Assembly (NCBI RefSeq): GCF_030812675.1
Contig: NZ_JAUSTE010000001.1
Span: 620,001-684,000, forward strand
Direction of reading: 5' to 3'
Length of the DNA: 64,000 nt
DNA from: Sinomonas atrocyanea
Lineage (GTDB): Bacteria; Actinomycetota; Actinomycetes; Actinomycetales; Micrococcaceae
This document shows, piece by piece, positions 5,506 to 29,108 of this stretch (its first letter is position 1; each line of letters starts with the position of its first letter). A program made the translations under genes and the position numbers. The notes under the pieces are model-generated. The model was given only the letters and a program-made list of their open reading frames with translations, did not search any database and was not told the DNA's origin.

Positions 5506-6660
5506 CTACTCTAACGGGGCCGCGCCGCTGACCATGACGCAGTTCCGCCCGGCCGACTTCGCGCCGTACAGGGCCGTGTCCGCGCTCGCGATGAGCGCGC
5601 CGAGGTCGTCCCCGTGTACCAGGCTGTCCGCCACCCCGAAGCTCGCGGTGGGCACGGTGTGCCCGTCGAGGAGGATGCGCTGGGCCGAGAGGACGAACTG
5701 GATGCGCTCGGCGACCGCCACGCCGTCGGCAGCGGAGGAGTCGGCGAGCGCCATGATGAACTCCTCGCCCCCGAACCGGCCCACGAGGTCCCGCGAGCGC
5801 ACCGACTGCCGGCAGGCCACGCCGAAGGCGCGGATCACCTCGTCCCCGGTGAGATGGCCGAAGTCGTCGTTGATCGACTTGAACTTGTCCAGGTCCGCCA
5901 TGATCACGGTGACCACGGTGCCCTGCTCGTGCGCCCTGCTGAGCATCTCGCCCGCCCGGCGCATGAACTCGGTGCGGTTCAGCAGGCCGGTGAGGGCATC
6001 CTTCGTGGCGAGCTGCTGGAAGTGCGCCGTGCGGGTAGCGCTCGTGAGCGCGGCCAGGCTCGTCGCGGCCGCCACGATGAGCACGATCGCCGCGAGCAGC
6101 GAGAAGCCCTGGCCGAACACCGCCCGGAAGGCGGGGCTGTTGCCGCCCAGGGCCGCGAGGGCGAGGGCGCGCACCAGGTCGTACACCCCCGTGATCACGG
6201 CGATCACCGCAAAGTTCCGCGCCGTCCGCCACGGCACCGTGCGCTGGCGCCGCAGCTCGACGAAGATCGCTGCGCAGAACCCGCCGGAGAGCAGCAGGAG
6301 CACCACGGCTCCCCACTGATAGGGATCGATGAAGCGGGCAGCGAATCCCACGAACCCGGCGGCGAGCACTCCGAGAACGAGGTACACGGCGGGGGTGTCC
6401 GGGTCACGGAGCCGACGCACGCCGGCCCACATCGAGGCCACGCCCACCACCATGAGGCCCTGGCCGACGAGGCTGACGATCGCCACGCCCCCGTCATTGA
6501 GGATGCCGGCGGCGCACAGCGTCGCGAGCGCGAGGCACCACCAGCGGGCGGGACCCGTGGGATTCGCGCGGTAGGCGTCGAAGTAGAACAGCACGAGCAC
6601 GCACAGCGAGACGACCGCCATCACGACGGTGAGCGTGCCCAGGTCCAGAGCGCCCCCCAC
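5506..6660 (-). CDS. Membrane-bound diguanylate cyclase (GGDEF)
   Basis: 384 aa from GTG 6660, chosen because GGGGAGG precedes it at good spacing; longer in-frame starts run antisense into neighbouring genes. About six to seven hydrophobic helices fill residues 5-215. A GGDEF domain follows, with [33 protein letters not shown] and the active site [12 protein letters not shown] near residue 298. RSRD lies five residues before GGEEF, so the allosteric inhibitory I-site is present. The protein should make c-di-GMP at the membrane in response to an unknown signal sensed by the membrane domain. It lies immediately upstream of acpS and is divergent from a second c-di-GMP gene group. Confidence 0.9.
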
Positions 6661-6786
6661 AGTGTTCCTCCCCGGGCCCGTCAGCGGGCACCTCCCGTGG
6701 GCCCAGCGTACCGGCCGCCGGGCAGGCCCCGGGGTATGCTCCCAACGTGGCGCCGCCGTGGCGCCAGTGCGGCAGAGAGGAGCGGC

Positions 6787-7182
6787 GTGGATCCCCAGCA
6801 GAGCCCCCAGGGGACCGACTCGGGCATCAGCTCGCTCTCCTTCGATGACGCCGGCGTGCTCCGCCTCGTGTGGGAGCGCGGCGTGGACATCGACGCGCCC
6901 CAGGCCGAGGCCGCCATGGCCCACGTCAACGCCGCCGCCGGCCAGGACCGCGTCCCGCTCCTGATCGACATGGCCACCACCTCCTCCGTGAGCCGCTCGG
7001 CCCGGGCCGTGTTCGCACGCCCCTGCGCAGCGGCCGCGATCGCCCTCCTCGGCGCCTCCGCCGTGGACCGCGTGCTCGCCAACTTCTTCCTCGGCGTCTA
7101 CAAGGCGCCCTGCCCCACCAAGTTCTTCACCGACGAGGCCCGCGCCGTCGCCTGGCTCGCGGAGGCCGCCGATGGCAGCTGA
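6787..7182 (+). CDS. SEC14/STAS-like small protein
   Basis: 131 aa with a GTG start at 6787 behind GAGAGGAGCGGC. The pattern LSFDDAGVLRLVWERGVDID, then VPLLIDMATTSSVSRSARAVF, and a final CPTKFFTDEARAVAWL matches the STAS/SEC14-like small proteins common in Arthrobacter-type genomes. Their biochemical role is unknown to me, and the family name is from memory of their pattern. The gene overlaps the GGDEF-EAL gene by 11 bp, which suggests translational coupling and a role linked to c-di-GMP signalling or the downstream glycosyltransferase. Confidence 0.7.
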   Translation: MDPQQSPQGTDSGISSLSFDDAGVLRLVWERGVDIDAPQAEAAMAHVNAAAGQDRVPLLIDMATTSSVSRSARAVFARPCAAAAIALLGASAVDRVLANFFLGVYKAPCPTKFFTDEARAVAWLAEAADGS

Positions 7183-8728
7183 GCCGACGGATGACAGGCT
7201 CGAGAAGCTCATCGACCTGATCGTGCGGCTCTCGGCCGGAGACCTCTCCCAGCGGATGGAGACCTCCCCCGCGCGCGACTCGATCGACGCCGTCACGACG
7301 GGCATCAACCTCCTCGCCGAGGAGCTCGAGACCCTCTACGACCAGCTCGAGGCGCGCATCGCCCACCGCACCGAGCTGCTCGAGCGCGCCCAGAACGAGC
7401 TGCGCCGCCTCGTCGACACCGACGAGCTGACGGGCCTCGCGAGCCGCCGGCTCGTGCGCGAGCGGATCGACGCCGGCCTGCAGACGGCCGACGACGGCGG
7501 GCTGGCCGCCGTCGTGATCCTCGCCCTGCGCGGGTTCCGCCTCATCAACGACACCTTCGGCCACTCGGCGGGCGACGCCGTGCTCGTCGAAGTGGCTCAG
7601 CGGCTCCGGGCCGCGATGGGCGATGCCGGGAGCGGCGGCCACCTCGTGGGCCGGCTCGGCGGCGACGAGTTCGCGGTGCTCGTGACCGGGCAGGACCCCG
7701 AAGGCGTGCTCTGGACCGCGCGGACCGTCCTGGACACGCTCAGGCAGCGGGTCGTGGTCAACGGCATCCAGATCAGCCTGCGCGGCAACGTCGGCATCCG
7801 GTACGCCGAGCGGCAGCTGGCGGTCGAGGAGATGCTCCGCGACGCCGACGCCGCGCTCGAGGCCAGCAAGGCCAAGGGCCACGGCAGCATCAGCGTGTTC
7901 AACCCCGCCATGCACGAGGTCGTCGCCCAGCGCGTCCGCGTCGCGTCAGAGCTGCGGGCTGCGTTCCCCAAGGGCGAGATCGAGGTCTTCTACCAGCCGA
8001 TCATCGGGCTCGCCGACGCCACGCTTGCCGGCGCCGAGGCGCTCGTGCGCTGGCGCCACCCCGTCCGGGGCCTGCTGCCCCCGTCCACGTTCCTCGACAT
8101 CGCCGAGGACGCCGGGCTCATGGTCGAGCTCGGCCGGTGCGTCCTGACCCAGGTGGTCGAGACGGCCGGCGAGTGGGCCCACGACCCCGGCCTGCCCGAG
8201 CACTTCAGCCTGCACGTGAACATCTCCCCCGCCGAGCTCGCCCACGGCGACCTCACCGCCCACATCCGCAGGCTGCTGGACGACGCCGGGCTGCCCGGGC
8301 CGCGCCTGACCGTGGAGATCACCGAGTCGGCCATCATGACCGGCGGCCCCGACAGCCGGCAGACCCTCCGCTCCCTCGGGGAACTCGGGGTCCCCATCGA
8401 GATCGACGACTTCGGCACCGGCTACTCCTCCATCAGCTACCTCCGGACCCTCCCCGCGGTCCGGGCCAAGATCGACAAGTCGCTCGTCGACACCATCGCC
8501 AGCGACCCGACCCAGGTCGCGTTCGTCGACGCCATCGTGCGGCTCATCCACGCCGCCGGGCTGACCGTGGTGGCCGAGGGCATCGAGGACGAGGCCCAGG
8601 CCGGGCTCCTGCGCGAGCTGGGCTGCGAGTACGGCCAGGGCTACCTGTTCGCCCGGCCCATGCCGGCCGCCGAGCTGGGCCGGCTCCTGCGGGCCGTGCA
8701 GGAAGGAGACCAGCATGCCGCTCGGTGA
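7172..8728 (+). CDS. GGDEF-EAL c-di-GMP turnover protein
   Basis: 518 aa, soluble, with no membrane segment. Residues about 1-85 are a helical, coiled-coil-like N-terminus (HAMP-like ETSPARDSIDAVTTGINLL, then EELETLYDQLEARIAHRTEL). The GGDEF domain has DTDELTGLASRRL and an intact GRLGGDEFAVL near residue 163, without the upstream RxxD I-site. The EAL domain has GAEALVRWRHP (near 288), NISP, EITESAI, DDFGTGYSSISYL, KIDKSLV, VAEGIED and QGYLFARPMP, so all expected metal and catalytic residues are present. Both synthesis and hydrolysis of c-di-GMP are possible. The gene overlaps its upstream neighbour by 11 bp and its downstream neighbour by 14 bp. Confidence 0.92.
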   Translation: MAAEPTDDRLEKLIDLIVRLSAGDLSQRMETSPARDSIDAVTTGINLLAEELETLYDQLEARIAHRTELLERAQNELRRLVDTDELTGLASRRLVRERIDAGLQTADDGGLAAVVILALRGFRLINDTFGHSAGDAVLVEVAQRLRAAMGDAGSGGHLVGRLGGDEFAVLVTGQDPEGVLWTARTVLDTLRQRVVVNGIQISLRGNVGIRYAERQLAVEEMLRDADAALEASKAKGHGSISVFNPAMHEVVAQRVRVASELRAAFPKGEIEVFYQPIIGLADATLAGAEALVRWRHPVRGLLPPSTFLDIAEDAGLMVELGRCVLTQVVETAGEWAHDPGLPEHFSLHVNISPAELAHGDLTAHIRRLLDDAGLPGPRLTVEITESAIMTGGPDSRQTLRSLGELGVPIEIDDFGTGYSSISYLRTLPAVRAKIDKSLVDTIASDPTQVAFVDAIVRLIHAAGLTVVAEGIEDEAQAGLLRELGCEYGQGYLFARPMPAAELGRLLRAVQEGDQHAAR

Positions 8729-9497
8729 CAGCATCCGGCTCGCCTCCCGCGTGGCGATCCTCTCCGGACGGGTCCCCCGCAGCCCCTCCGCGGCGTGGGA
8801 GCGGTTCTGGGCGGGCATCGCCGAGGGCACGCTCCCGGAGGACGTGCTCTGGGAAGGTGACCCGCACTCCGAGGCCGGCGAGCATGTGACCCGCGGGATC
8901 GACCATCTCGATCCCTCCCTGCCCGTGGTCGACGTGGGCTGCGGGTCCGGGTGGCTCTCCGCCGCCCTCGCCCGGGCGTTCCCCCGCGTGCTCGGCCTCG
9001 ACGCCTCCGCCGCCGCCGTCGACCTCGCCGCGCAGCACCACGGGGAGCCGGGGCGCGTCGACTTCCTGGCCGCCGACGCGACTGATCCCGAGACCAGCGA
9101 GCGGCTCCACGGGGAGCTCGGGGACGCGAACGCCGTCGTGCGCGGGGTGCTCCACGTCCTCACCCCGGCCAAGCAGCGCGCCCTCGCCGCGGGGCTCCGC
9201 ACGCTCGTGGGGACGCGGGGACGGGTGTACCTCGTCGAGACCAACGTGCCCGGCGGCGGACTCGGCTACCTGCGCGCACTCGGGGCGAGCGGGGAGTCCA
9301 TCCCCGCCCCGCTCGCGCAGGCGATCCGCACGCTGCCGCAGCCGGGCCACTTCGGCCCCGCCGAGCGGGCGCGGGCCTTCCCCGAGGACCAGTGGCGGCT
9401 CGAGGCGGACGGGTCCACGGCGCTGGCGCTCGCGCTGCCCGCGGACGGCAGCCACCTCCGCGTCCCGGCGTACTGGACAGTCGCCTCCGCCCGGTAG
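8715..9497 (+). CDS. SAM-dependent class I methyltransferase
   Basis: 260 aa. The start overlaps the end of the GGDEF-EAL gene by 14 bp, with AGGAAGGAGA as ribosome-binding site inside that gene. Motif I is LPVVDVGCGSGWLSAALA, followed by RVLGLDASAAAVDLA (motif II Asp) and DFLAADATD. The C-terminal half is less conserved and could set substrate specificity. The substrate is unknown. Position between a c-di-GMP enzyme and a processive glycosyltransferase suggests modification of a polysaccharide or its lipid carrier, but this is inference. Confidence 0.8.
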   Translation: MPLGDSIRLASRVAILSGRVPRSPSAAWERFWAGIAEGTLPEDVLWEGDPHSEAGEHVTRGIDHLDPSLPVVDVGCGSGWLSAALARAFPRVLGLDASAAAVDLAAQHHGEPGRVDFLAADATDPETSERLHGELGDANAVVRGVLHVLTPAKQRALAAGLRTLVGTRGRVYLVETNVPGGGLGYLRALGASGESIPAPLAQAIRTLPQPGHFGPAERARAFPEDQWRLEADGSTALALALPADGSHLRVPAYWTVASAR

Positions 9498-9506
9498 CAT
9501 GCCCCC

Positions 9507-11033
9507 ATGGGGAGATGGTTCCAGAGGCTCGTGGGCCTCCTGATCGTCGCGGCCGTGACCGGCGCCGCGCTGCTGCTGTGGTGGGGGGTGGCCGCGAGCC
9601 AGCCGCCGCCGCTCTGGCAGCCCGCCAAGGTCTCGATCGGCGGTGTGTGGAGCGTCTTCTACGACGCCCACGCGCCGCACTGGCGCGTCGTCCTCGTCTC
9701 CGTGGCCGCCGCGATCCTGCTCGGGGCAGGCGTTGCACTCCTCGACCGGGCCATTGCCACCCGCTCGCGCCGGGCCTCGGCGCACGTGCAGGCGAAGCCG
9801 CTGGCGCCGAAGACCATCATGGCCGCCACCCGCGGCGTCTTCGCCGGGCCGGTGACCGTCACCGTGCTCATCCCCGCGCACAACGAAGAGGCATCGCTGC
9901 CCGCGACGCTGGCCTCGCTCGACGCGCAGGCCCTCCGTCCGGACCGGGTGATCGTGGTCGCGGACAACTGCACCGATCGCACCGCCGAGATCGCGCGGGC
10001 CGCCGGCGCCGAGGTGTTCGCCACCGAGGGCAACACGGACAAGAAGGGCGGCGCGCTCAACCAGGCGCTGCGCACCCTGCTGCCCGGGCTCGCCGACAAC
10101 GACGTGGTCATGGTGATGGACGCGGACACCAAGCTCGGCGGCCAGTACCTCGCCGAGGCGGTGCGGCGGTTCACCGACGACCGTGCGCTCGTGGCCGTGG
10201 GCGGCCTCTTCTACGGCGAGGAGGGGCACGGGCTCATCGGCCAGTTCCAGCGCAACGAGTACATCCGCTACTCGCGCGAGATCCGCCGGCGGCGCGGGCG
10301 CGTGTTCGTCCTGACAGGGACCGCATCCGTGTTCCGGCCGGTGGCCCTGCGGGCCGTCGCCGACGCCCGAGGCACCCAGCTTCCCGGCCGGCGCGGCGAC
10401 GTGTACGACACGGCCGCGCTCACCGAGGACAACGAGCTGACGATTGCGCTCAAGTCCCTCGGGGCGCTCATGGTGTCGCCGCCCGAGTGCACCGTGGAGA
10501 CCGAGCTCATGCCCACGTGGCGGATGCTCTGGGCGCAGCGGCTTCGCTGGCAGCGCGGGGCGCTCGAGAACCTCGGCGCCTACGGCGTCACGCCGCAGAC
10601 CGCGCGGTACTGGTTCCAGCAGCTCGGGATCGGCTACAGCGTGATCGCGCTCGGGACCTACCTGTCCCTCATCGCCCTGATGGCCCTGTCCATGGATACG
10701 TGGATCTGGTTCCCGTTCTGGCTCGGGCTGGGGTTCTGGTTCACCCTCGAGCGGCTCGTCACCGCCTGGGGCGGGGGCTGGCGCGCCCGGCTCCTTGCCG
10801 CCTGCCTGTTCCCCGAGCTCGTCTTCGACATGTTCCTGAACGTGGTCTACCTCAAGGGGATCGCGGACATCACCGCGGGGCGCAAGGCCGCGTGGAAGCA
10901 CCTCGTGCGGCCGCCGGGGGTCGAGGCCGCTTCTGGCGCTGCCAGCGTGAGGGCCGCTCCCGGCGGCCCTGGTGTGGCTGCTGCCCCTGCCGCCGCTGCC
11001 CCTGCTGCCGCTGCCGAGGAGGCGGCGCGGTGA
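9507..11033 (+). CDS. Processive membrane glycosyltransferase, family 2 (BcsA/HAS-like)
   Basis: 508 aa. Two N-terminal membrane helices (about 7-28 and 53-74) precede a GT-A domain. Motifs are VTVTVLIPAHNEEASLPATL, VADNCTDRT, the DxD metal site in VVMVMDADTKLGG, the acceptor motif TEDNEL, and QRLRWQRG (the Q-x-x-R-W signature of processive synthases). Further C-terminal helices follow, then a Pro/Ala-rich tail of about 50 residues. No PilZ domain is visible. It should polymerise and perhaps export a beta-linked exopolysaccharide. Linkage with a GGDEF-EAL gene suggests c-di-GMP control through another partner. Its stop overlaps the next start (GTGA). Confidence 0.88.
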   Translation: MGRWFQRLVGLLIVAAVTGAALLLWWGVAASQPPPLWQPAKVSIGGVWSVFYDAHAPHWRVVLVSVAAAILLGAGVALLDRAIATRSRRASAHVQAKPLAPKTIMAATRGVFAGPVTVTVLIPAHNEEASLPATLASLDAQALRPDRVIVVADNCTDRTAEIARAAGAEVFATEGNTDKKGGALNQALRTLLPGLADNDVVMVMDADTKLGGQYLAEAVRRFTDDRALVAVGGLFYGEEGHGLIGQFQRNEYIRYSREIRRRRGRVFVLTGTASVFRPVALRAVADARGTQLPGRRGDVYDTAALTEDNELTIALKSLGALMVSPPECTVETELMPTWRMLWAQRLRWQRGALENLGAYGVTPQTARYWFQQLGIGYSVIALGTYLSLIALMALSMDTWIWFPFWLGLGFWFTLERLVTAWGGGWRARLLAACLFPELVFDMFLNVVYLKGIADITAGRKAAWKHLVRPPGVEAASGAASVRAAPGGPGVAAAPAAAAPAAAAEEAAR

Positions 11034-11242
11034 GTCCCGTGCGTGTGCCGCTCGGCCTCCTGTTCGACGAATCGATCCTGCAGAGTCCGTTCATCAACGT
11101 GCTCGCGACGTTCGTGGCCCTCAACACCCTCATGTACGCGGCGCTCGCGGTGGCCCGGGTGCTCCCCCGACCCCGCCTGCCCTGGCGGCGCCGGTACCAG
11201 CGCGCCGAGACCCGCAGCATCTACCCCGACGGCCGCGTCTAG
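11030..11242 (+). CDS. 70-aa membrane protein coupled to the glycosyltransferase
   Basis: GTG start at 11030 overlaps the glycosyltransferase stop (GTGA), with GAGGAGG (11016-11022) as ribosome-binding site inside the upstream gene. It encodes one membrane helix (about residues 20-42, INVLATFVALNTLMYAALAV) followed by a strongly basic segment (RPRLPWRRRYQR) and a short soluble end. The coupling and size fit an accessory subunit of the GT2 synthase, but no family is recognised. Confidence 0.75.
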   Translation: MSPVRVPLGLLFDESILQSPFINVLATFVALNTLMYAALAVARVLPRPRLPWRRRYQRAETRSIYPDGRV

Positions 11243-11304
11243 GGTGCGGCTGCTCCGGAGCGCGGTGGGCGGGTCGCGGGTTGCGGCGCTCCTTCTGGGC
11301 TGAC

Positions 11305-12096
11305 CTAGGTGAGGGTCCAGGACCTCTTGGACAGCCCGAACCAGAAGCCCTCGATCGCGGTCTTCGCGTCGATCCCGCCCGACGCCGAGGCCGCGCCGAG
11401 GGCCACGTACAGCGGGGCCCAGTGCTCCGAGCGCGGGTGCGCCTCGCGGGCGGCCGGGGCCTTGTGGATGAAGTCGAGGATGGAGTCCACGTCCCCGCGG
11501 GACATGGCTTCTTCTGCCCAGTGGTCGAACTCGGAGGACGCCGCGGGCGGGGCGGCGTCGGCACCGGCGTGCGGGTTGAACCAGCGCAGGTTGTGGGTGG
11601 TGAAGCCCGAGCCCACGATCAGCGTCCCGCGGTCGCGCAGGGGTGCCAGGGTCCGGCCCAGCTCGAACAGGCCCCGCGGGTCCAGGGTCGGCATCGACAT
11701 CTGCACCACGGGGACGTCCGCTCCCGGGAAGAGCTCCTTGAGCGGGACGTACGCGCCGTGGTCGAGGCCGCGGGTCTCATCGCGTTCCACATGGTGGCCG
11801 TGCTGGGAGGTCAGCCGGGCCACCTCGTTCGCGAGCTCGGGGGCGAGGGGGGCCTCGTAGCGCACGTCGTAGTACTTCTGCGGGAAGCCCCAGAAGTCGT
11901 AGACGAGCTCCTGCGGGCGCTCGGTGGCGCTCAGGGTCACCGGCGCGTTCTCCCAGTGCGCCGAGACCATGAGGATGTCCTTGGGCTTGGCGAACGTGCC
12001 GGACCACTCGTGGAGCTGGCGGGTCCATGTGGCGTCGTCGGCGAGCGGCGGCGCGCCGTGGCTGAGGAACAGGACGGGGGGCTGGGCTGCGGTCAT
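11305..12096 (-). CDS. LigB-type extradiol dioxygenase (DODA/YgiD family)
   Basis: 263 aa from ATG 12096. Family features in order are PPVLFLSHGAPPL with an active-site His, ILMVSAHWEN with a metal-ligand His, YDFWGFPQKYYDVRYEAP, LDHGAYVPLKELFPGADVPVVQMS, TLIVGSGFTTHNL, and HWAPLYVALGA near the C-terminus. These are single-domain class III ring-opening dioxygenases related to 4,5-DOPA dioxygenase, using a divalent metal on catechol-type substrates. The physiological substrate is unknown. It is convergent with the glycosyltransferase operon. An operator-like TTGA-tact-TCAA dyad sits 24 bp upstream of its start. Confidence 0.9.
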   Translation of the reverse strand: MTAAQPPVLFLSHGAPPLADDATWTRQLHEWSGTFAKPKDILMVSAHWENAPVTLSATERPQELVYDFWGFPQKYYDVRYEAPLAPELANEVARLTSQHGHHVERDETRGLDHGAYVPLKELFPGADVPVVQMSMPTLDPRGLFELGRTLAPLRDRGTLIVGSGFTTHNLRWFNPHAGADAAPPAASSEFDHWAEEAMSRGDVDSILDFIHKAPAAREAHPRSEHWAPLYVALGAASASGGIDAKTAIEGFWFGLSKRSWTLT

Positions 12097-22036: not shown

Positions 22037-23113
22037 TCAGGGGACCACGAGCTCGACGATCCCGTAGGCGCCCGTGTCCAGGACCCGCCCCGGCCGGAAG
22101 CCCGCCGCGTCCCCGAGCGCGAGGTGCTCGGCCGCGGAACGCTGGCGGCCCTCGGTCTGGGCGAGCATCATGACGTCCGAGATCGAGACGGGGAACTCGG
22201 CGGTGTTGGGCTCCTGGAGCCACTCGAGGACCAGCACCCGGGCGCCGGGGCCGGCGGCCGCCCGGACGGTGCGCAGGATCTGCTCGCACTGGGCGTCGTC
22301 CCAGTCGTGGAGCACGTCCTTGAGCAGGTACACGTCCGCGGCCGCCACGAAGCCGGCGAAGATGTCCCCCTCGACCGTGCGCACCCGGCCGCCCACGCCC
22401 CGGCCGGCGAGGTACTCCCGCGACGCGGCGAGGGGACCCGCCAGGTCCACCAGCACGCCGTCGAGCGCGGGACGGGCGGCGAGGACCGAGGCGAGCATGG
22501 CGCCCACGCCTCCGCCCACGTCGCACACCGTCCCCCGCTCTGGCCACGGGTAGGCGGCGACGATCAGCGGGGCCGCGAGGAGGGTGAGCTCGTGCATGGT
22601 GCGGGCGAAGCCGGCCTCCTCGTCCGGGTGCTCGGCGAGGTGGTCCCAGAGGCTCTTGCCCGCGGCGGCATTGAAGGCCGGCCTCCCGTCGGCCAGGGTC
22701 TCGGGCAGGCGGAGCCAGCCGGCCAGCACGGCGTCCGAGGTCGCGTACCGCACCCAGCCGGCCATCGACCGCGGGTGCTCCTCGAGCAGGAGCCTGCCGG
22801 TGGCGGTGAGGGCGAACGCGCCGCGGCGATCCAGGGTGACGAGGCCGTAGACGGCGAGGCCGCGGAGGATCCGGTGGGCGGTGTCGGCGTGCAGGCCGAG
22901 CTCGTGGGCCACCTGCGCGGCGGTGCGGCGTCCCGCGGCGAGGGGCTCGACGAGCCGGGTGCGGACGGCCGCCCGCATGAGCGCGATGGCCGCGACTCCC
23001 CCGGAGACCTCGAGGAAGCGCGCCTGCGGTGGCTGGAGGGCGGCGCCGGCCCGGGTGAGGGCCCTGCTGAGGCGCTGGACGGCCCGGACGGCGGCAGGCG
23101 GGGGCGTGCGCAT
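22037..23113 (-). CDS. O-methyltransferase with winged-helix dimerisation domain
   Basis: 358 aa. The N-terminal half is a plant-type O-methyltransferase dimerisation/winged-helix domain (RTAAQVAHELGLHADTAHRILRGLAVYGLV). The C-terminal half is the SAM-binding domain with TVCDVGGGVGAMLASVLA (motif I), GVLVDLAGPL, and VYLLKDVLHDWDDAQCEQIL, where the H-D-W motif supplies the usual catalytic His. The pattern matches hydroxyneurosporene, carminomycin or small-phenol O-methyltransferases. The substrate is unknown and no secondary-metabolite cluster adjoins. It starts 41 bp after the decayed GT87 gene on the same strand. Confidence 0.88.
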   Translation of the reverse strand: MRTPPPAAVRAVQRLSRALTRAGAALQPPQARFLEVSGGVAAIALMRAAVRTRLVEPLAAGRRTAAQVAHELGLHADTAHRILRGLAVYGLVTLDRRGAFALTATGRLLLEEHPRSMAGWVRYATSDAVLAGWLRLPETLADGRPAFNAAAGKSLWDHLAEHPDEEAGFARTMHELTLLAAPLIVAAYPWPERGTVCDVGGGVGAMLASVLAARPALDGVLVDLAGPLAASREYLAGRGVGGRVRTVEGDIFAGFVAAADVYLLKDVLHDWDDAQCEQILRTVRAAAGPGARVLVLEWLQEPNTAEFPVSISDVMMLAQTEGRQRSAAEHLALGDAAGFRPGRVLDTGAYGIVELVVP

Positions 23114-23154
23114 GAGGCGAGCGTACCTTGCTGCCCACCTTTGGCTCGTAGCCC

Positions 23155-23539
23155 CTAGACGAGGACGACGTCGTGATTCCTGCTGGGGGCGAACCCCGGA
23201 TCACAACGTGCGAGCGGTGAAGCGGCACCGTCGTCGAGCGATAGACGCGGTATGGCGAGAAGGGCCGCTAATGGCGAGACTCCGCCGAACACCGGGGACG
23301 CCAGCAACAGAGCCGGAGCAAGCAGCCATGAAGCGTTGGTCCGTGCTCCGAAGACCACGAGGACCGCCGCGAGGACGGCCCGCACCGCATAGCTGATCGG
23401 GCCGTCAGTGGCTCGGCCACGACTAGTGACCAGGCATGCGAACCGAGCGTTCCATGCGCCGGGGTCAGTCGCATAACCCACCAGCACAACGAGGAGGGTG
23501 GCTCCGATACCGAGGAGCCGGGCACGCCAGTCCCTCCTC
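23155..23539 (-). pseudogene. GT87/DUF2029 membrane glycosyltransferase copy, C-terminal fragment
   Basis: The minus-strand frame ending at 23155 encodes RRDWRARLLGIGATLLVV, then GYATDPGAWNARF and APALLLASPVFGG. This aligns with the last third of the intact gene at 26793-27716 (GYAIDPGAWNAWF, APAMFLATPVLAG). The upstream two thirds lie at 26216-26757. The two pieces are separated by the IS21-type element at 23540-26215. Removing that element and one copy of the 6-bp duplication joins them in frame. Confidence 0.9.
23534..23539. repeat. Target-site duplication, left copy
   Basis: CTCCTC directly borders the left TG end of the IS21-type element. The same six bases follow its right end at 26216-26221. 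The pre-insertion sequence is one copy, in the AGG-AGG codons of the GT87 paralogue. Confidence 0.85.
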
Positions 23540-23589
23540 TGGCTATGTCAACCCGAACGAGGACCAGGGTGACGGCTTGATTCGGGACC
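23540..23589. repeat. IS21-type left end with subterminal repeat
   Basis: The terminal unit TGGCTATGTC...GAGGACC (23540-23565) is followed by GTGACGGCTTGATTCGGGACC-type repeat at 23569-23589. The second matches the right-end repeats with one base different. Confidence 0.85.
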
Positions 23590-23895
23590 AGTCCGGGGTG
23601 CTGTGCCGGTGACTGGGATGTTGCGCTCGTCGTGCGCTCACCGTGCATCTCATCGCGCCGGGCAAACGCTCCTCCGATCCGCCCGAGCCTGTCACGAACA
23701 GTGGGGCGTGCGGCAGGGCGCGTTGGTCGGCCGCCGATAGTGAAGGCTTCGGGCTGGTCGCAGAAGGTTGAATCCGACCATCTAGTGCTACGCAAGACGT
23801 GCCACTTATCCCCGCGACCGACACGCGGGTCCCGACGAAAGGCGAAGAGCCGTCAATCCAAGCGGCCGGAGTGTCCGCTGTGGTATAGCTAGCTC

Positions 23896-25326
23896 ATGGG
23901 GGATGAAGGGAGGGAACTTGTTGGACAAGGCAGCCACGCTGCCTTTCACCCAAGGACGAAGGCGCGGAAAAAGTTCTGGATTCTGACATGGTTGGCATTC
24001 CTACCCTTCGTCTTGATTCGGTCCGAGAATCTAGCCGAATCCGATACGTTCTGGGAGGTTCGCACAGGGCTCTTTACGGTCTCCCAAGGCCGAATTCCCT
24101 CTGTCGATCCGTTCTCGTGGACCGTCAGTGGAAAACCATGGACCCTAAACTCTTGGGCGTTCGACGTCATCCTGGGCTTGTTCTACGATGCAGCCGGCTT
24201 GGTCGGCGTTGCTCTTGTATGCGCATGTCTTATCGCCGGAATCGGCGCACTGGTGCTGGTTCTCGCCCGGCAGCTCGGAGCATCCCCGGTGGCGTCCGGG
24301 TGGATGCTCGTGATCGGGGCGCCCTTATTGACACTATTCCTGTCGGCGCGGCCCCAGCTTGTTGACTACATCGCTGTTCTGGCACTCGTGGTGGTCCTAC
24401 GGCGACTTGTAGAGGCGCGTCAGCGGACTCCGCGGCTGCTCGCTATCGCCATCATTACTGTGCTGTGGGTCAACTTGCACGCAGGAGCTTTGCTAGGTGT
24501 GGCCATAGTAGCTGCCAGTGGCCTTTTGGTCTTCTTGAGGCGAGGCACGCGTGGGCGTGCCGGCTGGCTTCTGGCTGCACTATTGATAACAGCGGTCTGC
24601 TCACTTCTGAATCCTTACGGCACGGGGCTGCTCACCCAGACGCTCCAAGTTAGGCGTGAATCGGCCGTCATAGCCGAATGGCAGCCATTCAACCCGGCCG
24701 ACCCCCTACAGCTCATCATGTTCACCCTCGGTCTTCTTGGCCTCGGCACAGCGGCACGACGCGGGGATCCGGTCTTCACGGCCGCCATAGGGGTCGCAGC
24801 TGGCGGATCTGTGGCTGCAATGCGCATCCTTCCCGTCCTCGTCTTGCTCGCGTTGCCGGTCTTGGCGGCTCTTGCATCCCACGAGGTGGTTCTGCGCTAC
24901 CTTGCTAGTCGTCGTCGCATGTTTGCCCAAGCTGCCGCCGGCATCTTCGTGGTCGCAGGGGGGCTGGCAGTTTTCAATCTTCCTTTCTTTGGTCGCCCGG
25001 ATCCGACGCATTTCCCTAGCTCATCCATTAGGGTCATTCCCGCTGGATGCAAGCTGTTCAATGATTATCAGCTTGGCGGACTGGTGATCTTGGAGAGGCC
25101 CGATGTGCTGGTATCCATTGATTCGCGAAACGACCTGTATGGCGCAGATCGGGTTGCACAATCCTTGCGTACAGTTGACGCTCAAGGCGATCTGAACAAA
25201 GGGCTGGCCGGTGCAGACTGCGTCTTGGTTCCTCCGACGACAGGCCTGGCCCGCTGGCTACACACAAGTCCCGATTGGGATCTCAAGTCCTCCGAAACGA
25301 CAGCAGAATTGTTCGTCCGCCGTTGA
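23896..25326 (+). CDS. Polytopic membrane protein (GT-C-like), passenger of the IS21 element
   Basis: 476 aa from ATG 23896. A basic N-terminus leads to about ten hydrophobic segments over residues 27-365, then a soluble C-terminal domain of about 110 residues. After the first helix comes ESDTFWEVRTGLFTVSQG and VDPFSWTVSGKPWTLNSW, a D-x-F-W / D-P-F-S-W pattern seen in membrane proteins resembling GT-C glycosyltransferases (PMT/ArnT-like first loop). Function is not established. Its DNA is clearly less GC-rich than its surroundings, and it lies inside an IS21-type element in place of istB, so it was probably acquired from elsewhere. A hairpin follows its stop codon, so it looks like a complete gene. 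Confidence 0.75.
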   Translation: MGDEGRELVGQGSHAAFHPRTKARKKFWILTWLAFLPFVLIRSENLAESDTFWEVRTGLFTVSQGRIPSVDPFSWTVSGKPWTLNSWAFDVILGLFYDAAGLVGVALVCACLIAGIGALVLVLARQLGASPVASGWMLVIGAPLLTLFLSARPQLVDYIAVLALVVVLRRLVEARQRTPRLLAIAIITVLWVNLHAGALLGVAIVAASGLLVFLRRGTRGRAGWLLAALLITAVCSLLNPYGTGLLTQTLQVRRESAVIAEWQPFNPADPLQLIMFTLGLLGLGTAARRGDPVFTAAIGVAAGGSVAAMRILPVLVLLALPVLAALASHEVVLRYLASRRRMFAQAAAGIFVVAGGLAVFNLPFFGRPDPTHFPSSSIRVIPAGCKLFNDYQLGGLVILERPDVLVSIDSRNDLYGADRVAQSLRTVDAQGDLNKGLAGADCVLVPPTTGLARWLHTSPDWDLKSSETTAELFVRR

Positions 25327-25348
25327 TTCTCGAACTCGCGTTCGAGAA
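25327..25348 (+). terminator. Hairpin after the passenger gene
   Basis: TTCTCGAAC (25327-25335) and GTTCGAGAA (25340-25348) form a perfect 9-bp stem with loop TCGC. It begins immediately after the passenger stop codon and probably ends its transcript, although the downstream T-tract is weak. Confidence 0.6.
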
Positions 25349-25439
25349 GCTCTCTACATTTCTGCGGAATTTTCTCTGCTGGACCGAGCGTCGGGCCGCT
25401 GGCTGAGCGACTCACGGCCTCGCGGAGCGCCGCGGACGG

Positions 25440-26081
25440 GTCGATCGCGACGGATCAGGTGGCGAGTCGTGGCGGATGTTCCGGGCCGGGACGCCGCCGA
25501 ACTCCTCGAACGCCCCGATGGCCCTCGAGGAAGGCCTCCTGTGCCTGCGAGAGGCAGATCCGGTGCACGGCGCGACCGCTGTGGCTTAGGCGCATGACGA
25601 ACATGTGACACTTCGTCTTCACCCCGCCCAGCACCACCCAGAGCTCGCCGAAGTCCACCTCGGCCTCCGCCCCCAGGGCGTGCTCCTGCGGGACGAACAC
25701 CTCCACCCTCCTCCCCGCGGCGAGATCGATCTGCGCCCGGCGGAGGCGGACGTAGTCCCGCACCGTCGAATACGACAGGTCCCTGGCCCCGTACTCGTCG
25801 GCGAGCCGGGCCAGGATCCTCGTGGCGGTATGCCGCTGCTTCCTCGGCGCCTCGAGGTCCTCGCGGAGCATCGCGTCGATCGCGTCCTTGAACGGGCCAA
25901 GCGTGGACGAAGCCCGCACCGGGGTCTTCCGCGGCGGTGGCTCCGCGCGCGAGAGGGCCGTGCGGACCGTGTCCCGGCCCACCCCGTGCCGACGGGCCAG
26001 GGCCCGGATACCGAGGCCCTCGACCCGGACATCCCGCCGGATCCGGGCGAACAGCTCCACACGACTTCCCATCCGAACCAC
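25440..26081 (-). pseudogene. IS21-family transposase istA, 5' remnant (frameshifted and truncated)
   Basis: From GTG 26081 the frame gives an IstA N-terminus: ALARRHGVGRDTVRTAL (helix-turn-helix), then RILARLADEYGARDLSYSTVRDYVRLRR, and the start of the DDE integrase core (AEVDFGELWVVLGGVKTKCHMFVM, first catalytic Asp). At about 25510 the frame shifts: the continuation AFEEFGGVPARNIRHDS is found in another frame. Homology then stops near 25440, where AT-richer sequence begins. A normal IstA is about 400-550 residues and is followed by the ATPase IstB, so this gene is dead. Confidence 0.88.
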
Positions 26082-26122
26082 CTCACGTAGGCAAACCCCT
26101 CGGGCATCCCACCGTCAAAGGT

Positions 26123-26215
26123 GGTCCTGAATCAAACCGTCACAACACGCCGGTCCGCAGGCAGGTGGTCCTGAATCAAGCCGTCACACCGGTCCTGAAT
26201 CAAGCTGCATAGTCA
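26123..26215. repeat. IS21-type right end with three subterminal repeats
   Basis: Three related units lie at 26123-26143, 26167-26187 and 26191-26215 (core GGTCCTGAATCAAGCCGTCA and variants). The last runs to the terminal TGACTATG when read inward. They mirror the unit at the left end. Confidence 0.88.
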
Positions 26216-26757
26216 CTCCTCGCGAAAGGCCAGAGGAGCCCCACCCCGCTGGCCACCTTGACCAGAGCTGCAAAAGACCACAGGGCAGGCATTCGCGCGG
26301 GGAGGACCAGAACGACGGCGAGGAAGAGATAGATGTTGCCGACAAGCATCTCGTGCAACGCAAAGAGGGACTACGGCGCGGACCACTTGACGGGGAGAGG
26401 CCACAGGAGCCAGAACAGCGCAATGGCTTGGAAGAGCATCCACAGAAGACGGAAGGCCGGCCACGGTAGCAGCCCGAGAGGCTTGACCAAGGCGACGAAG
26501 GCCGGTGAGTAGAGGTAGGCATCCGCTTCGCCGGGCATCCTGCTGTAGTCGAGCGGCCCTTGAGCGGCCAGCCAGTATGCGTGCGAGTCAATGCCCACCG
26601 GCAGGCGCCCCGTTAGGAAGTAACCGAACCCGTAAAGGAGTGACAGGCTCAGAGGCCAGATCAGGATGGTCGCGGCGCCATCCGCGAGTGCCTGGTGATC
26701 CGCGAAATCGCTGAAGGCGCCCTATCGTTGGCTGAGCCGGACACCACCATTACCCAT
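26216..26757 (-). pseudogene. GT87/DUF2029 membrane glycosyltransferase copy, N-terminal fragment with two in-frame stops
   Basis: From ATG 26757 the frame meets TAG at 26722-26724 after 11 codons. It then reads on in the same frame through ILIWPLSLSLLYGFGYFL, RLPVGIDSHAYWLAAQG and YLYSPAFVALVKPLGLLPW. A second in-frame TAG (26371-26373) follows, and then LFALHEMLVGNIYLFLAVV and ALVKVASGVGLLWPFAR up to the IS21-type element. Every block aligns with the intact gene next door. The fragment is a tandem duplicate that carries two nonsense codons as well as the insertion. Its rest is at 23155-23539. Confidence 0.9.
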
Positions 26758-26792
26758 ATGTTTCCCCAAACCAGTAGATGCCGGAGCTCGAG

Positions 26793-27716
26793 CTAGACCA
26801 AGTTCGGCTGCGGCGTCGGCTCCTGCGTTGATTCGGCCACGTGCGGTGCCAGTGGAGCGGCAGCGCCATCAGCCATCAGCAGTCTTGGAATCATCAGGAA
26901 GAGCGCGAGCGGCCCCATCCCTGCGAGGACCGGCGTGGCCAAGAACATCGCGGGGGCGAGTAGGAACGACCAGTTGAGCCGCGCTCCCAGGACCACGAGC
27001 CCCACAGCGAGGAGGGTGCGAATGACGTAGTTCGTTGTGCTGTCCGGGGTTCCACTACGGTGCGAGAGGAGAAACTCGAACCAGGCGTTCCACGCCCCGG
27101 GATCGATAGCGTAACCCGCAACGAAGATCGCCACGGTCGTACCCGCCCCAACGCCAAAGGACTTCCAGTCGCCCCGAGCCAGCGGCCACAGCAGCCCAAC
27201 CCCCGTGGCGACCTTGGTGAGCGCCCCGAATGCCCACACTCCGGGCGCCCGCGCCGCTACTACGGCAGCAGCGGCCAAGAAGAGGAAGATATTGCTTCCG
27301 ATCAGCTCCGGGATGGCTGCGACAAACAGCGGTATTGCCCACGTTGGCCTGAGGGGGCGGAGGAGCCAGAAGAGCACAGCGGACTCCAGCAGGATCCAGA
27401 GAACCTCGAAGACCGGCCACGGAAGCACTCCAAGCGGCCTGATGGCGGAGAGGAAGGCGGGTGAGTAGAGATACGCGTCGATCTCGCCCGGAACCCTCGT
27501 GTAGCTCAGCGGCCCCTGCAGTGCTAGCCAGTATGCGTGGGAATCCGTTCCCACCGGCTGCCGCTCCTCGACTAGGAAACGATAGACCGGGAAGAGGGTT
27601 GCCAAGCCCATGGGCCAGATGAGGAACCCGGCCATACGTCCGATGACCGGGTACTGCGCAGCGTACTCACTGAACGGGCCGAATCGGTGCCCCCGGTCGG
27701 GCGCAGTAAAGGCCAT
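26793..27716 (-). CDS. GT87/DUF2029-family polyprenol-phosphate-dependent mannosyltransferase-like membrane protein
   Basis: 307 aa from ATG 27716, preceded by GGGGGAT; a further in-frame ATG lies 27 bases upstream. It is hydrophobic throughout, with about eight to nine membrane helices. After helix 1 comes PVGTDSHAYWLALQGPLSY, where the Asp is in the position of the GT-C catalytic Asp, then EIDAYLYSPAF and RPLGVLPW. These match the DUF2029/GT87 family, whose known members use polyprenol-phosphate-mannose for cell-wall glycans. It is shorter than typical GT87 proteins (about 400 aa). It is downstream of glmM on the same strand, and upstream of its own decayed tandem copy. Confidence 0.82.
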   Translation of the reverse strand: MAFTAPDRGHRFGPFSEYAAQYPVIGRMAGFLIWPMGLATLFPVYRFLVEERQPVGTDSHAYWLALQGPLSYTRVPGEIDAYLYSPAFLSAIRPLGVLPWPVFEVLWILLESAVLFWLLRPLRPTWAIPLFVAAIPELIGSNIFLFLAAAAVVAARAPGVWAFGALTKVATGVGLLWPLARGDWKSFGVGAGTTVAIFVAGYAIDPGAWNAWFEFLLSHRSGTPDSTTNYVIRTLLAVGLVVLGARLNWSFLLAPAMFLATPVLAGMGPLALFLMIPRLLMADGAAAPLAPHVAESTQEPTPQPNLV

Positions 27717-27758
27717 GAGATCCCCCATCCATCTCGAGGCCACGCCTCGCTTTCATCG

Positions 27759-29108
27759 CTAGGCGAGGGCCAACTGACTTTGTACCACGGCGGCGAGGCG
27801 CGCGGCGATGGCCTGGGCGGTCTCCTCGTCGGCGGCCTCGACCATGACCCGGACCACGGGCTCGGTGCCCGAGGGGCGCAGGAGCACGCGGCCGGTCTCC
27901 CCGAGCTGGGCCTCGGCGTCGGCCACGGCGGCCGCCACGCCCGGGTCCGCGGAGACGCGGGCCTTGTCCACGCCCTTGACGTTGATGAGGACCTGCGGGA
28001 GGCGGGTCATCACGGCCGAGAGCTCCTTGAGCGTCTTGCCCGTCCGCGCCACCTGGGCCGCGATCTGCAGGCCCGTGAGCACGCCGTCGCCGGTGGTCGC
28101 GAAGTCGGAGAAGATCACGTGCCCGGACTGCTCGCCGCCGAGCGAGTAGCCGCCGGCGCGCATCTCCTCGAGCACGTAGCGGTCCCCCACGGCGGTCTCG
28201 CGGATGGTGATGCCCGCCTCGCGCAGGGCGATCTTGAGGCCGAGGTTGCTCATCACGGTGGCAACGAGCACGTCGTCGCGGAGCTTGCCGGCGTCCTTGA
28301 GGGCGAGGCCGAGGATGGCCATGATCTGGTCGCCGTCCACCACGGTGCCCTCGTGGTCCACGGCGAGGCAGCGGTCGGCGTCGCCGTCGTGGGCCACGCC
28401 CAGGTCGGCGCCGTGCTCCACGACCGCGGCCTGGAGCTTCTCGAGGTGGGTGGAGCCCACGCCCTCGTTGATGTTGAGCCCGTCCGGGTCGGCGCCGATC
28501 ACCACGACCTCGGCGCCGGCGTCCTTGAACACCTGCGGCGAGCAGCCGGATGCGGCGCCGTTGGCGCAGTCGAGCACCACGGTGAGCCCGTCGAGGCGGT
28601 GGGGGAGGGTGGTGAGCAGGTGGACGATGTAGCGGTCCTCCGCGTCGGAGAAGCGCTGGATGCGGCCCACGCCGGGGCCGGTGGGGCGGTGCGGCTCGCT
28701 GGCGAGGAGCGCCTCGATCTGGTCCTCGACCTCGTCGGGGAGCTTCTGGCCGCCGCGGGCGAAGAACTTGATGCCGTTGTCCGGGGCCGGGTTGTGGCTC
28801 GCGGAGATCATCACGCCGAAGTCGGCGCCGAGGTCCGCCACGAGGTAGGCGGCGGCGGGGGTCGGGAGGACGCCGGCGTCGTACACGTCCACGCCCGCGC
28901 TCGCGAGGCCGGCCTCGACGGCCGCACCGAGGAACTCGCCGGAGGCTCGGGGATCGCGGGCGACGACGGCGCGCGGCCGGGTGCCGTCCGGCACCTGCTG
29001 GTGGCCGAGGACGACGGCGGCCGCCTGGGAGAGCTTGAGGGCGAGCTCGGCGTCGAGGAGGCCATTGGCCAGCCCGCGCACGCCGTCAGTACCGAAGAGC
29101 CTAGTCAC
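27759..29108 (-). CDS. glmM: Phosphoglucosamine mutase
   Basis: 449 aa with GTG start at 29108. Family motifs are [15 protein letters not shown], the phosphoserine loop [17 protein letters not shown], the metal loop AHDGDADRC, the sugar-binding GGEQSGH, and the C-terminal phosphate site [15 protein letters not shown]. It converts glucosamine-6-phosphate to glucosamine-1-phosphate for UDP-GlcNAc. In related genomes glmM follows rplM-rpsI; here it is separated from rpsI by about 7 kb of other genes. Confidence 0.97.

Follow-up and report, generated by a model that had tools for sequence, protein, structure and literature searches.

An IS21-derived element with a passenger gene and a truncated transposase in Sinomonas atrocyanea, and related elements carrying varied genes beside istB

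We analysed a 64,000-nucleotide stretch of the Sinomonas atrocyanea genome (contig NZ_JAUSTE010000001.1, positions 620,001–684,000; hereafter the window), which contains, at window positions 23540–26215, an insertion sequence (IS) derived from the IS21 family in which a membrane-protein gene and a fragment of the transposase gene istA lie between two IS21-type ends (Table 1). The element is 2,676 base pairs (bp) long, has TGG as its first and TCA as its last letters, is opened by TGGCTATG and closed by CATAGTCA, and is directly flanked on both sides by CTCCTC. A 31-nucleotide pair, complementary at 90%, forms an inverted repeat across both ends (23560–23590 with 26166–26196), and the right end contains three copies of GGTCCTGAATCAA(A/G)C, at 26123, 26167 and 26191. 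When the two 100-bp ends are compared, their best-matching 31-mers agree at 28 of 31 positions, as against a maximum of 22 among 150 random pairs at equal spacing in the same window, while a 6-mer is repeated at exactly the CTCCTC spacing at 51 of 61,100 window positions (0.08%). TG...CA termini, multiple subterminal repeats at both ends and a short target-site duplication all point to an IS21 origin, as does the start of istA, which adjoins the right end in the same layout as in a related element of Sinomonas genome G004. An earlier note on this DNA, made from its letters alone, had described the TG/CA ends, the shared subterminal repeats and the flanking CTCCTC, and on all three it was correct.

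The insertion can be read from its flanks. When position 23539 is joined to 26222, keeping a single CTCCTC, one reading frame runs over the junction, and both sides of it match the neighbouring GT87 gene (49% identity over 189 residues and 52% over 110). Because the joined flanks give one GT87-like frame that matches this tandem paralogue, we read the element as one clean insertion with a 6-bp duplication. Short direct repeats are weak evidence by themselves, and the ends and duplication might be coincidental, through chance or an assembly artefact. We consider this exceedingly improbable and count it as already refuted, apart from long-read proof of contiguity, given an end similarity above all 150 controls, the rarity of 6-mers repeated at the exact spacing, the recurrence of the same kind of ends in the genus and the unbroken frame across the joined flanks. 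The target takes its GT87 name from the paralogue, and neither half passes the Pfam cut-off. Because of an in-frame TAG in its 5′ half, the target gene was a pseudogene at the time or has become one since.

For an empty-site comparison we took 12 of the 14 other Sinomonas genomes, with G014 and G007 outside that set. In all 12 loci examined, the methyltransferase gene found at 22037–23113 in the window adjoins glmM at a distance of 48 bp to ~1.1 kilobases (kb), and neither the two GT87 genes nor the element was matched at this locus in any of the 12. Because the whole target region is absent from these loci, no true empty site is readable in a relative. The block 23155–27743, with two tandem GT87-like genes of which one is interrupted, looks strain-specific between methyltransferase and glmM. 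Rfam gave nothing at gathering thresholds in 23000–27800.

Between its ends, the element retains part of one transposition gene. The istA remnant is 91% identical to residues 1–188 of the 559-residue IstA of Sinomonas G004 and then goes out of frame, and no istB open reading frame (ORF) is found inside the element. An autonomous IS21 would have a full-length istA and the IstB helper (PF01695), whereas here 188 of 559 residues remain in frame and the helper is lacking from the element. The earlier note's placement of the remnant (usual position and orientation, adjoining the right end), its report that istB is absent and its description of a non-autonomous, passenger-carrying IS therefore all hold: the element derives from IS21, duplicated its target site on insertion, holds a passenger and lacks a working transposase of its own. 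A genus search gave five long istA matches; DNA homology to the remnant begins at 25466 in four of them (G004, G006 and two identical copies in G014) and 52 bases further in for the fifth, a more distant G014 copy. A cargo-bearing element of G004 has 91% DNA identity to the remnant and also shares the left end (79%). Just past the break point lies a 41-bp piece with 90% identity to two ISL3 transposase genes that are open elsewhere in the genus (Pfam ISL3 domain). At the other side, the left ~190 bp are non-coding and common, wholly or partly, to other Sinomonas units, with 79–85% identity to G002, G001 and G003, 79% over 131 bp to G004 and 78% to contig 9 of the same genome.

The passenger gene encodes 476 amino acids, and a crude hydropathy scan places nine membrane segments, which partly overlap, in the protein. 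It matches no named family: Pfam has nothing above cut-off, NCBIfam and PADLOC gave no match at all, and no solved structure was retrieved at E ≤ 1 with a profile of 12 sequences. Going by a general resemblance, we take it to be a putative GT-C-like membrane glycosyltransferase-type protein, most likely one serving the cell surface. Its GC content is 59.0%, against 69.8% for the window, and its GC at third codon positions (GC3) is 0.63, against 0.97 for glmM. The complete AT-richer gene of the earlier note is thus confirmed, but the terminator hairpin assigned to it is a possibility only: of 200 shuffles of the hairpin that follows the stop codon, 5 fold as well, no T-run follows it and a terminator scan did not call it.

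Homologues of the passenger were found in 8 of 395 family genomes, own included. They are full length or nearly so and 52–57% identical in G191 and G259 (genus g9, probably Arthrobacter-like) and in G014 and G007 (Sinomonas), fragmentary in G043 and G373, and represented by one short match in G159. A class search gave matches in 16 of 394 genomes, own included, with the others at ≤38%. With neighbouring genes named by eye, without family searches, homologues lie between rpsI and glmM (L105 and L106) or between or beside tuf and rpsJ (L103, L104 and L108), and thus repeatedly near ribosomal-protein or translation genes in two genera. That the passenger is a local Sinomonas gene was considered and rejected as the leading interpretation: the homologues occupy other locations, and the window copy is no closer to those of Sinomonas.

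Table 1. Features of the interrupted GT87-like locus, in window coordinates
Feature	Position	Strand	Evidence
3′ half of interrupted GT87-like target; no Pfam match of its own	23155..23533	-	named from paralogue
Left copy of 6-bp target-site duplication CTCCTC	23534..23539	.	joined flanks restore GT87 frame
Left end: terminal TGGCTATG, subterminal repeat GTGACGGCTTGATTCGGGACC, ~190-bp non-coding stretch	23540..23733	+	similarity to other Sinomonas units
Passenger, 476-residue multi-pass membrane protein	23896..25326	+	no Pfam above cut-off, no NCBIfam or PADLOC match; homologues in family genomes
9-bp perfect hairpin, possible terminator	25327..25348	+	z −2.5; no T-run
ISL3-family transposase gene fragment, 41 bp	25413..25453	-	90% to two open genus genes
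istA remnant, 188 of 559 residues in frame, then frame lost	25466..26081	-	91% to G004 IstA
Right end beside istA: three GGTCCTGAATCAA(A/G)C repeats, terminal CATAGTCA	26082..26215	-	sequence
Right copy of target-site duplication CTCCTC	26216..26221	.	sequence
5′ half of interrupted target; start uncertain, TAG at 26371–26373, Pfam GT87 below cut-off	26222..26740	-	paralogue and joined frame
Intact tandem GT87 paralogue, guide to the uninterrupted gene	26793..27743	-	Pfam GT87, E 3e-10

The position of the passenger becomes clearer from related elements with both istA and istB. Loci were chosen by relatedness, comprising 20 stretches from a family search, among the matches listed, and 16 plasmid loci from among 40 matches listed of 4,331 plasmid records, and the fractions below describe this sample rather than a census. 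In these relatives the C-terminal domain of IstA is of Mu type, its rve match falls just short of cut-off, and IstB is PF01695. Motifs were the sole basis for calling ends, and the left end was set at the left-end motif closest after istB. Both ends were called in 35 of 39 istAB relatives and both flanks were readable in 32, leaving out L037 (no right-end motif), L051, L065 and L135 (no left-end motif), and L050, L055 and L063 (flank unreadable). Direct duplications of 5–7 bp were present in 25 of the 32, compared to 4 of 992 cross-pairings of right flanks with other loci's left flanks (24 of 31 without L124, which is the same insertion as L121). Extra DNA of 502–7,179 bp separates istB from the left end in 23 of these 25, with cargo below 3 kb in 20 of the 23; the other two, L036 and L126, have none. 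Relatives such as L033, L054 and L127 combine open istA and istB with passengers.

Extra genes are common in the sampled members of this IS21 clade, and the window passenger is most likely the cargo of an established slot, one that lies between istB and the left end. The earlier note had proposed that the transposase genes were largely replaced by a foreign gene. In the relatives, cargo has a slot of its own alongside istA and istB, and because cargo is held there together with open istAB, replacement appears less likely than a cargo slot plus later deletion. Transposase loss would be separate from the cargo and looks like a later deletion beside the ISL3 fragment. We consider it probable, with good confidence, that a cargo-carrying IS21 element inserted in a GT87-like gene, then lost istB and the last two thirds of istA, and is now cassette-like.

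An ordinary istA–istB element might instead have inserted first, with the passenger entering later by recombination and replacing istB along with most of istA. Only the ends, and not the cargo, are dated by the duplication and the restored frame, and a local donor is conceivable: two Sinomonas homologues lie between rpsI and glmM, an interval that in the window is just across glmM from the insertion. Against such a late arrival, the sampled relatives as a rule have extra genes in precisely this slot, the left ~190 bp before the cargo are common to other cargo-bearing units, and the identity of the window passenger to its Sinomonas homologues (52%) does not exceed that to the genus g9 ones (54–55%), which makes this order of events unlikely in our judgement compared with insertion of a unit already carrying its cargo.

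The cargo of these elements is diverse. The 31 cargo units, window included, fall into 24 unrelated groups, including merA, lactococcin-972, trpS, GT87, ECF sigma factor and RHS genes. Eight of the 31 have no shown duplication (L050, L055, L060, L063, L064, L069, L122 and L123), the cargo ORFs were picked with a simple ORF chooser and may include spurious short ones, and L134 is linked to the merA group by a MerR-type helix-turn-helix at 28% identity, without which there are 25 groups. Ends and duplications were found in Propioniciclava flava, Microbacterium paulum and Arthrobacter sp. AK04, as well as at twelve loci on plasmids, among which one insertion is represented twice. Plasmids of Paenarthrobacter, Arthrobacter sp. 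ZXY-2 and Pseudarthrobacter phenanthrenivorans carry merA and a regulator, while other plasmids have a GT87 gene (P. psychrotolerans), a GNAT gene (Frondihabitans) or a 9-kb unit (Gordonia). Elements L057 and L058 have istAB 91.5% identical and unrelated cargo; related ECF sigma cargo (46%) is found in two separate IstB clades (L034 and L060).

Several such elements recur at different sites. Loci L127 and L129 contain the same 4,884-bp merA element (99.9%) with duplications CCTCC and GGCGG and no match found in the 1 kb of flank on either side, and L058 and L128 share 3,115 bp (99.9%) between dissimilar flanks, with duplications AACGC and CCGCA. In addition, L054 and L056 share 4.0 kb at 91.5% across two bacterial families (ACGCGC and GCTGG), and L130 and L131, which lie at different sites, have 3,547 bp in common (98.8%), with a duplication in L131 only. 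These flank comparisons covered one strand. Because near-identical elements, cargo included, are found at sites that are unrelated and have different duplications, cargo-bearing IS21 units to all appearances transpose as whole units.

A plasmid of Microbacterium sp. No. 7 carries a tryptophanyl-tRNA synthetase gene as IS21 cargo (L123, 11501–12613; no duplication found), one guess being that it is a spare or inhibitor-tolerant enzyme. A 9.8-kb element with duplication GGGAG carries an RHS/YD-repeat gene of 1,112 codons (L057, 8226–11561), together with two further shorter ORFs that by eye resemble spare RHS ends.

Within the genus, a search with the element gave matches in 12 of 15 genomes, own included, of which a few are the ISL3 piece or a short stretch only, and revealed paired IS21-type ends at several spacings. 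IstA was searched in 11 of the 14 other Sinomonas genomes. G004 contains an intact, close istAB in a 6,613-bp element (L033) with duplication TTTCGC, whose cargo is a lactococcin-972-type bacteriocin gene, an ABC ATPase and a 666-residue protein with a weak match to a bacteriocin-associated membrane family. In G006 a 4,056-bp element (L034) carries an ECF-type sigma factor and a neighbour, with istA frameshifted, while G014 has intact, more distant copies (70%) and a plain form of 2,699 bp with istA and istB only. The earlier note had suggested searching other genomes for copies with the same passenger, other passengers or intact istAB: the latter two were found between such ends, but the same passenger was not.

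Some Sinomonas units have ends without a transposase. On contig 9 of the same genome (L006, ~6184–11552), left and right IS21-type ends lie 5.3 kb apart around GyrI-like, RibD_C, transglycosylase, GNAT and LysM genes, with no istA or istB, inverted copies of GGGAGTCACCTCCTG on both flanks and no duplication found by eye. Transposase-less stretches at L041 (5022–9447) and L039 (from 6249) begin at the same kind of left end; by eye, a relaxase-like gene lies beside them and a GNAT-like gene near, the latter ending at the left end in L041. Single IS21-type end matches also occur at L007 (~5560), L044 (~3425), L045 (~4228), L046 (~2095), L047 (~4564) and L048 (~4777), and may possibly be raw material for capturing new cargo.

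These observations bear on whether the window element ever had an autonomous parent with this cargo, or whether two solitary IS21 ends flanking the gene came to be used together. Solitary or unpaired end matches do occur in the genus and some units, such as that on contig 9, have ends without any transposase; in the window, however, the istA remnant adjoins the right end normally, so that at least the right side comes from an autonomous element. We regard such an end capture as very improbable and favour descent from a cargo-carrying IS21 with both transposition genes.

The window copy, which in the earlier note's view could be moved in trans by a related IS21, is probably stranded, since no IstA or IstB helper was found in the draft genome (4.12 megabases, 32 contigs). 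The IstA remnant matched only itself, and an IstB-model search gave four hits, of which the one above cut-off is a DnaA domain and the three below it were not examined further. The full-length relative that the earlier note had thought to look for in this genome was therefore found by neither route in the 32 contigs, and a helper may possibly lie in a contig gap.

Taking the favoured history step by step, the ancestral unit would have had the order left end, cargo, istB, istA, right end, and IstA and IstB, enzymes assigned from the family, would have mobilized it whole by its TG/CA ends. The unit would then have entered the GT87-like gene, duplicating CTCCTC, a step to which the joined flanks attest, with its passenger in the slot between istB and the left end that in relatives is filled by different genes. 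A later deletion, probably accompanied by an ISL3 insertion of which 41 bp remain, would have removed istB and the last two thirds of istA. The present unit would resemble a mobile insertion cassette, consisting of ends and passenger and movable only if a related IstA/IstB enters the cell.

Several points weigh against this history. The order, cargo first and deletion second, is one that we infer, and the 41-bp ISL3 match could have nothing to do with the deletion. None of six homologue loci examined has IS21 ends around the passenger, leaving no second copy between such ends; the reading survives this, since many other passengers are enclosed by ends of the same kind. The low GC of the passenger is common to its same-genus homologues (60–62% GC, GC3 0.67–0.69), and because these and the nearby GT genes (GC3 0.74–0.78) are also AT-rich, composition by itself is a weak indication of foreign origin. 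The end motifs were fitted to early examples and widened once after missing already known ends, and 7 of the 32 motif-called pairs have no duplication, one of them (L035) being a plain form. Finally, the transposase-less Sinomonas units L006, L040 and L041 are no proof that transposase-free units move because no duplication was seen by eye.

The relatives resemble known IS21 members in several respects. IS5376 is described as having ends with multiple terminal repeats and a terminal CA, and IS21 members as having istA and istB between the ends (PMC10122671); three IS21 elements of ~2.5 kb are listed elsewhere (PMC3281130). The relatives share IstA/IstB, multiple-repeat ends with terminal CA and 5–7-bp duplications with IS21 and IS5376 as so described; unlike these, they carry 0.5–7.2 kb more, and the window copy is without istB and most of istA. 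ISs that carry passenger genes have been termed transporter ISs (tIS; PMC9330008, PMC3129680 and PMC7986276), and the carriers named in the literature consulted are members of IS6, IS481, ISL3 and ISNCY, with IS21 not among them. Relatives with open istAB fit the tIS definition as given there, whereas the window copy has a passenger but a broken transposase in place of a functional one of its own. Like a mobile insertion cassette or an element resembling miniature inverted-repeat transposable elements (MITEs), the window copy and the contig 9 unit have IS ends around passengers without a functional transposase; unlike such derivatives, the window copy keeps a readable istA remnant, has no helper found in its genome and is present once only.

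TnsC and TniB of Tn7- and Tn5053-type transposons are relatives of IstB. These unit transposons likewise move diverse cargo with a transposase and an AAA+ helper, but the IS21 relatives have two transposition genes only and, mostly, less than 3 kb of cargo. No target-selector or resolvase gene was noticed in their annotated slots, although no search was aimed at them. No paper on IS21 passengers was recognized in the openly licensed full-text literature, among the matches listed, and ISfinder may already include such elements. The earlier note's remark that cargo-carrying derivatives are rarely noted for IS21 fits the literature searched, yet extra genes are common in the sampled clade. The window element is a variant within IS21 of the transporter-IS kind already known.

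More broadly, we give about even weight to the hypothesis that this actinobacterial IS21 clade is a general cargo-shuttling family, with a dedicated istB-to-left-end slot that turns over faster than the transposase diverges, perhaps by recapture via alternative or solitary left ends; the window copy would then be stranded, and a repressor role is conceivable for its truncated IstA: with the N-terminal part preserved, this protein might still bind the ends and so act on incoming relatives. IS21 elements have been described as plain two-gene insertion sequences. If the clade routinely carries exchangeable cargo, genes on actinobacterial plasmids and chromosomes, among them those for mercury resistance, bacteriocin systems, a tRNA synthetase and glycosyltransferases, would pass in annotation for unrelated plasmid genes, and a route by which genes are transferred would be overlooked. 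Cargo gain and swapping by a simple transposase with an AAA+ helper would also become directly testable, because istAB is small and biochemically well studied. Since related elements carry many different passengers, including mercury resistance, it appears that simple IS21 elements can act as gene shuttles in soil bacteria.

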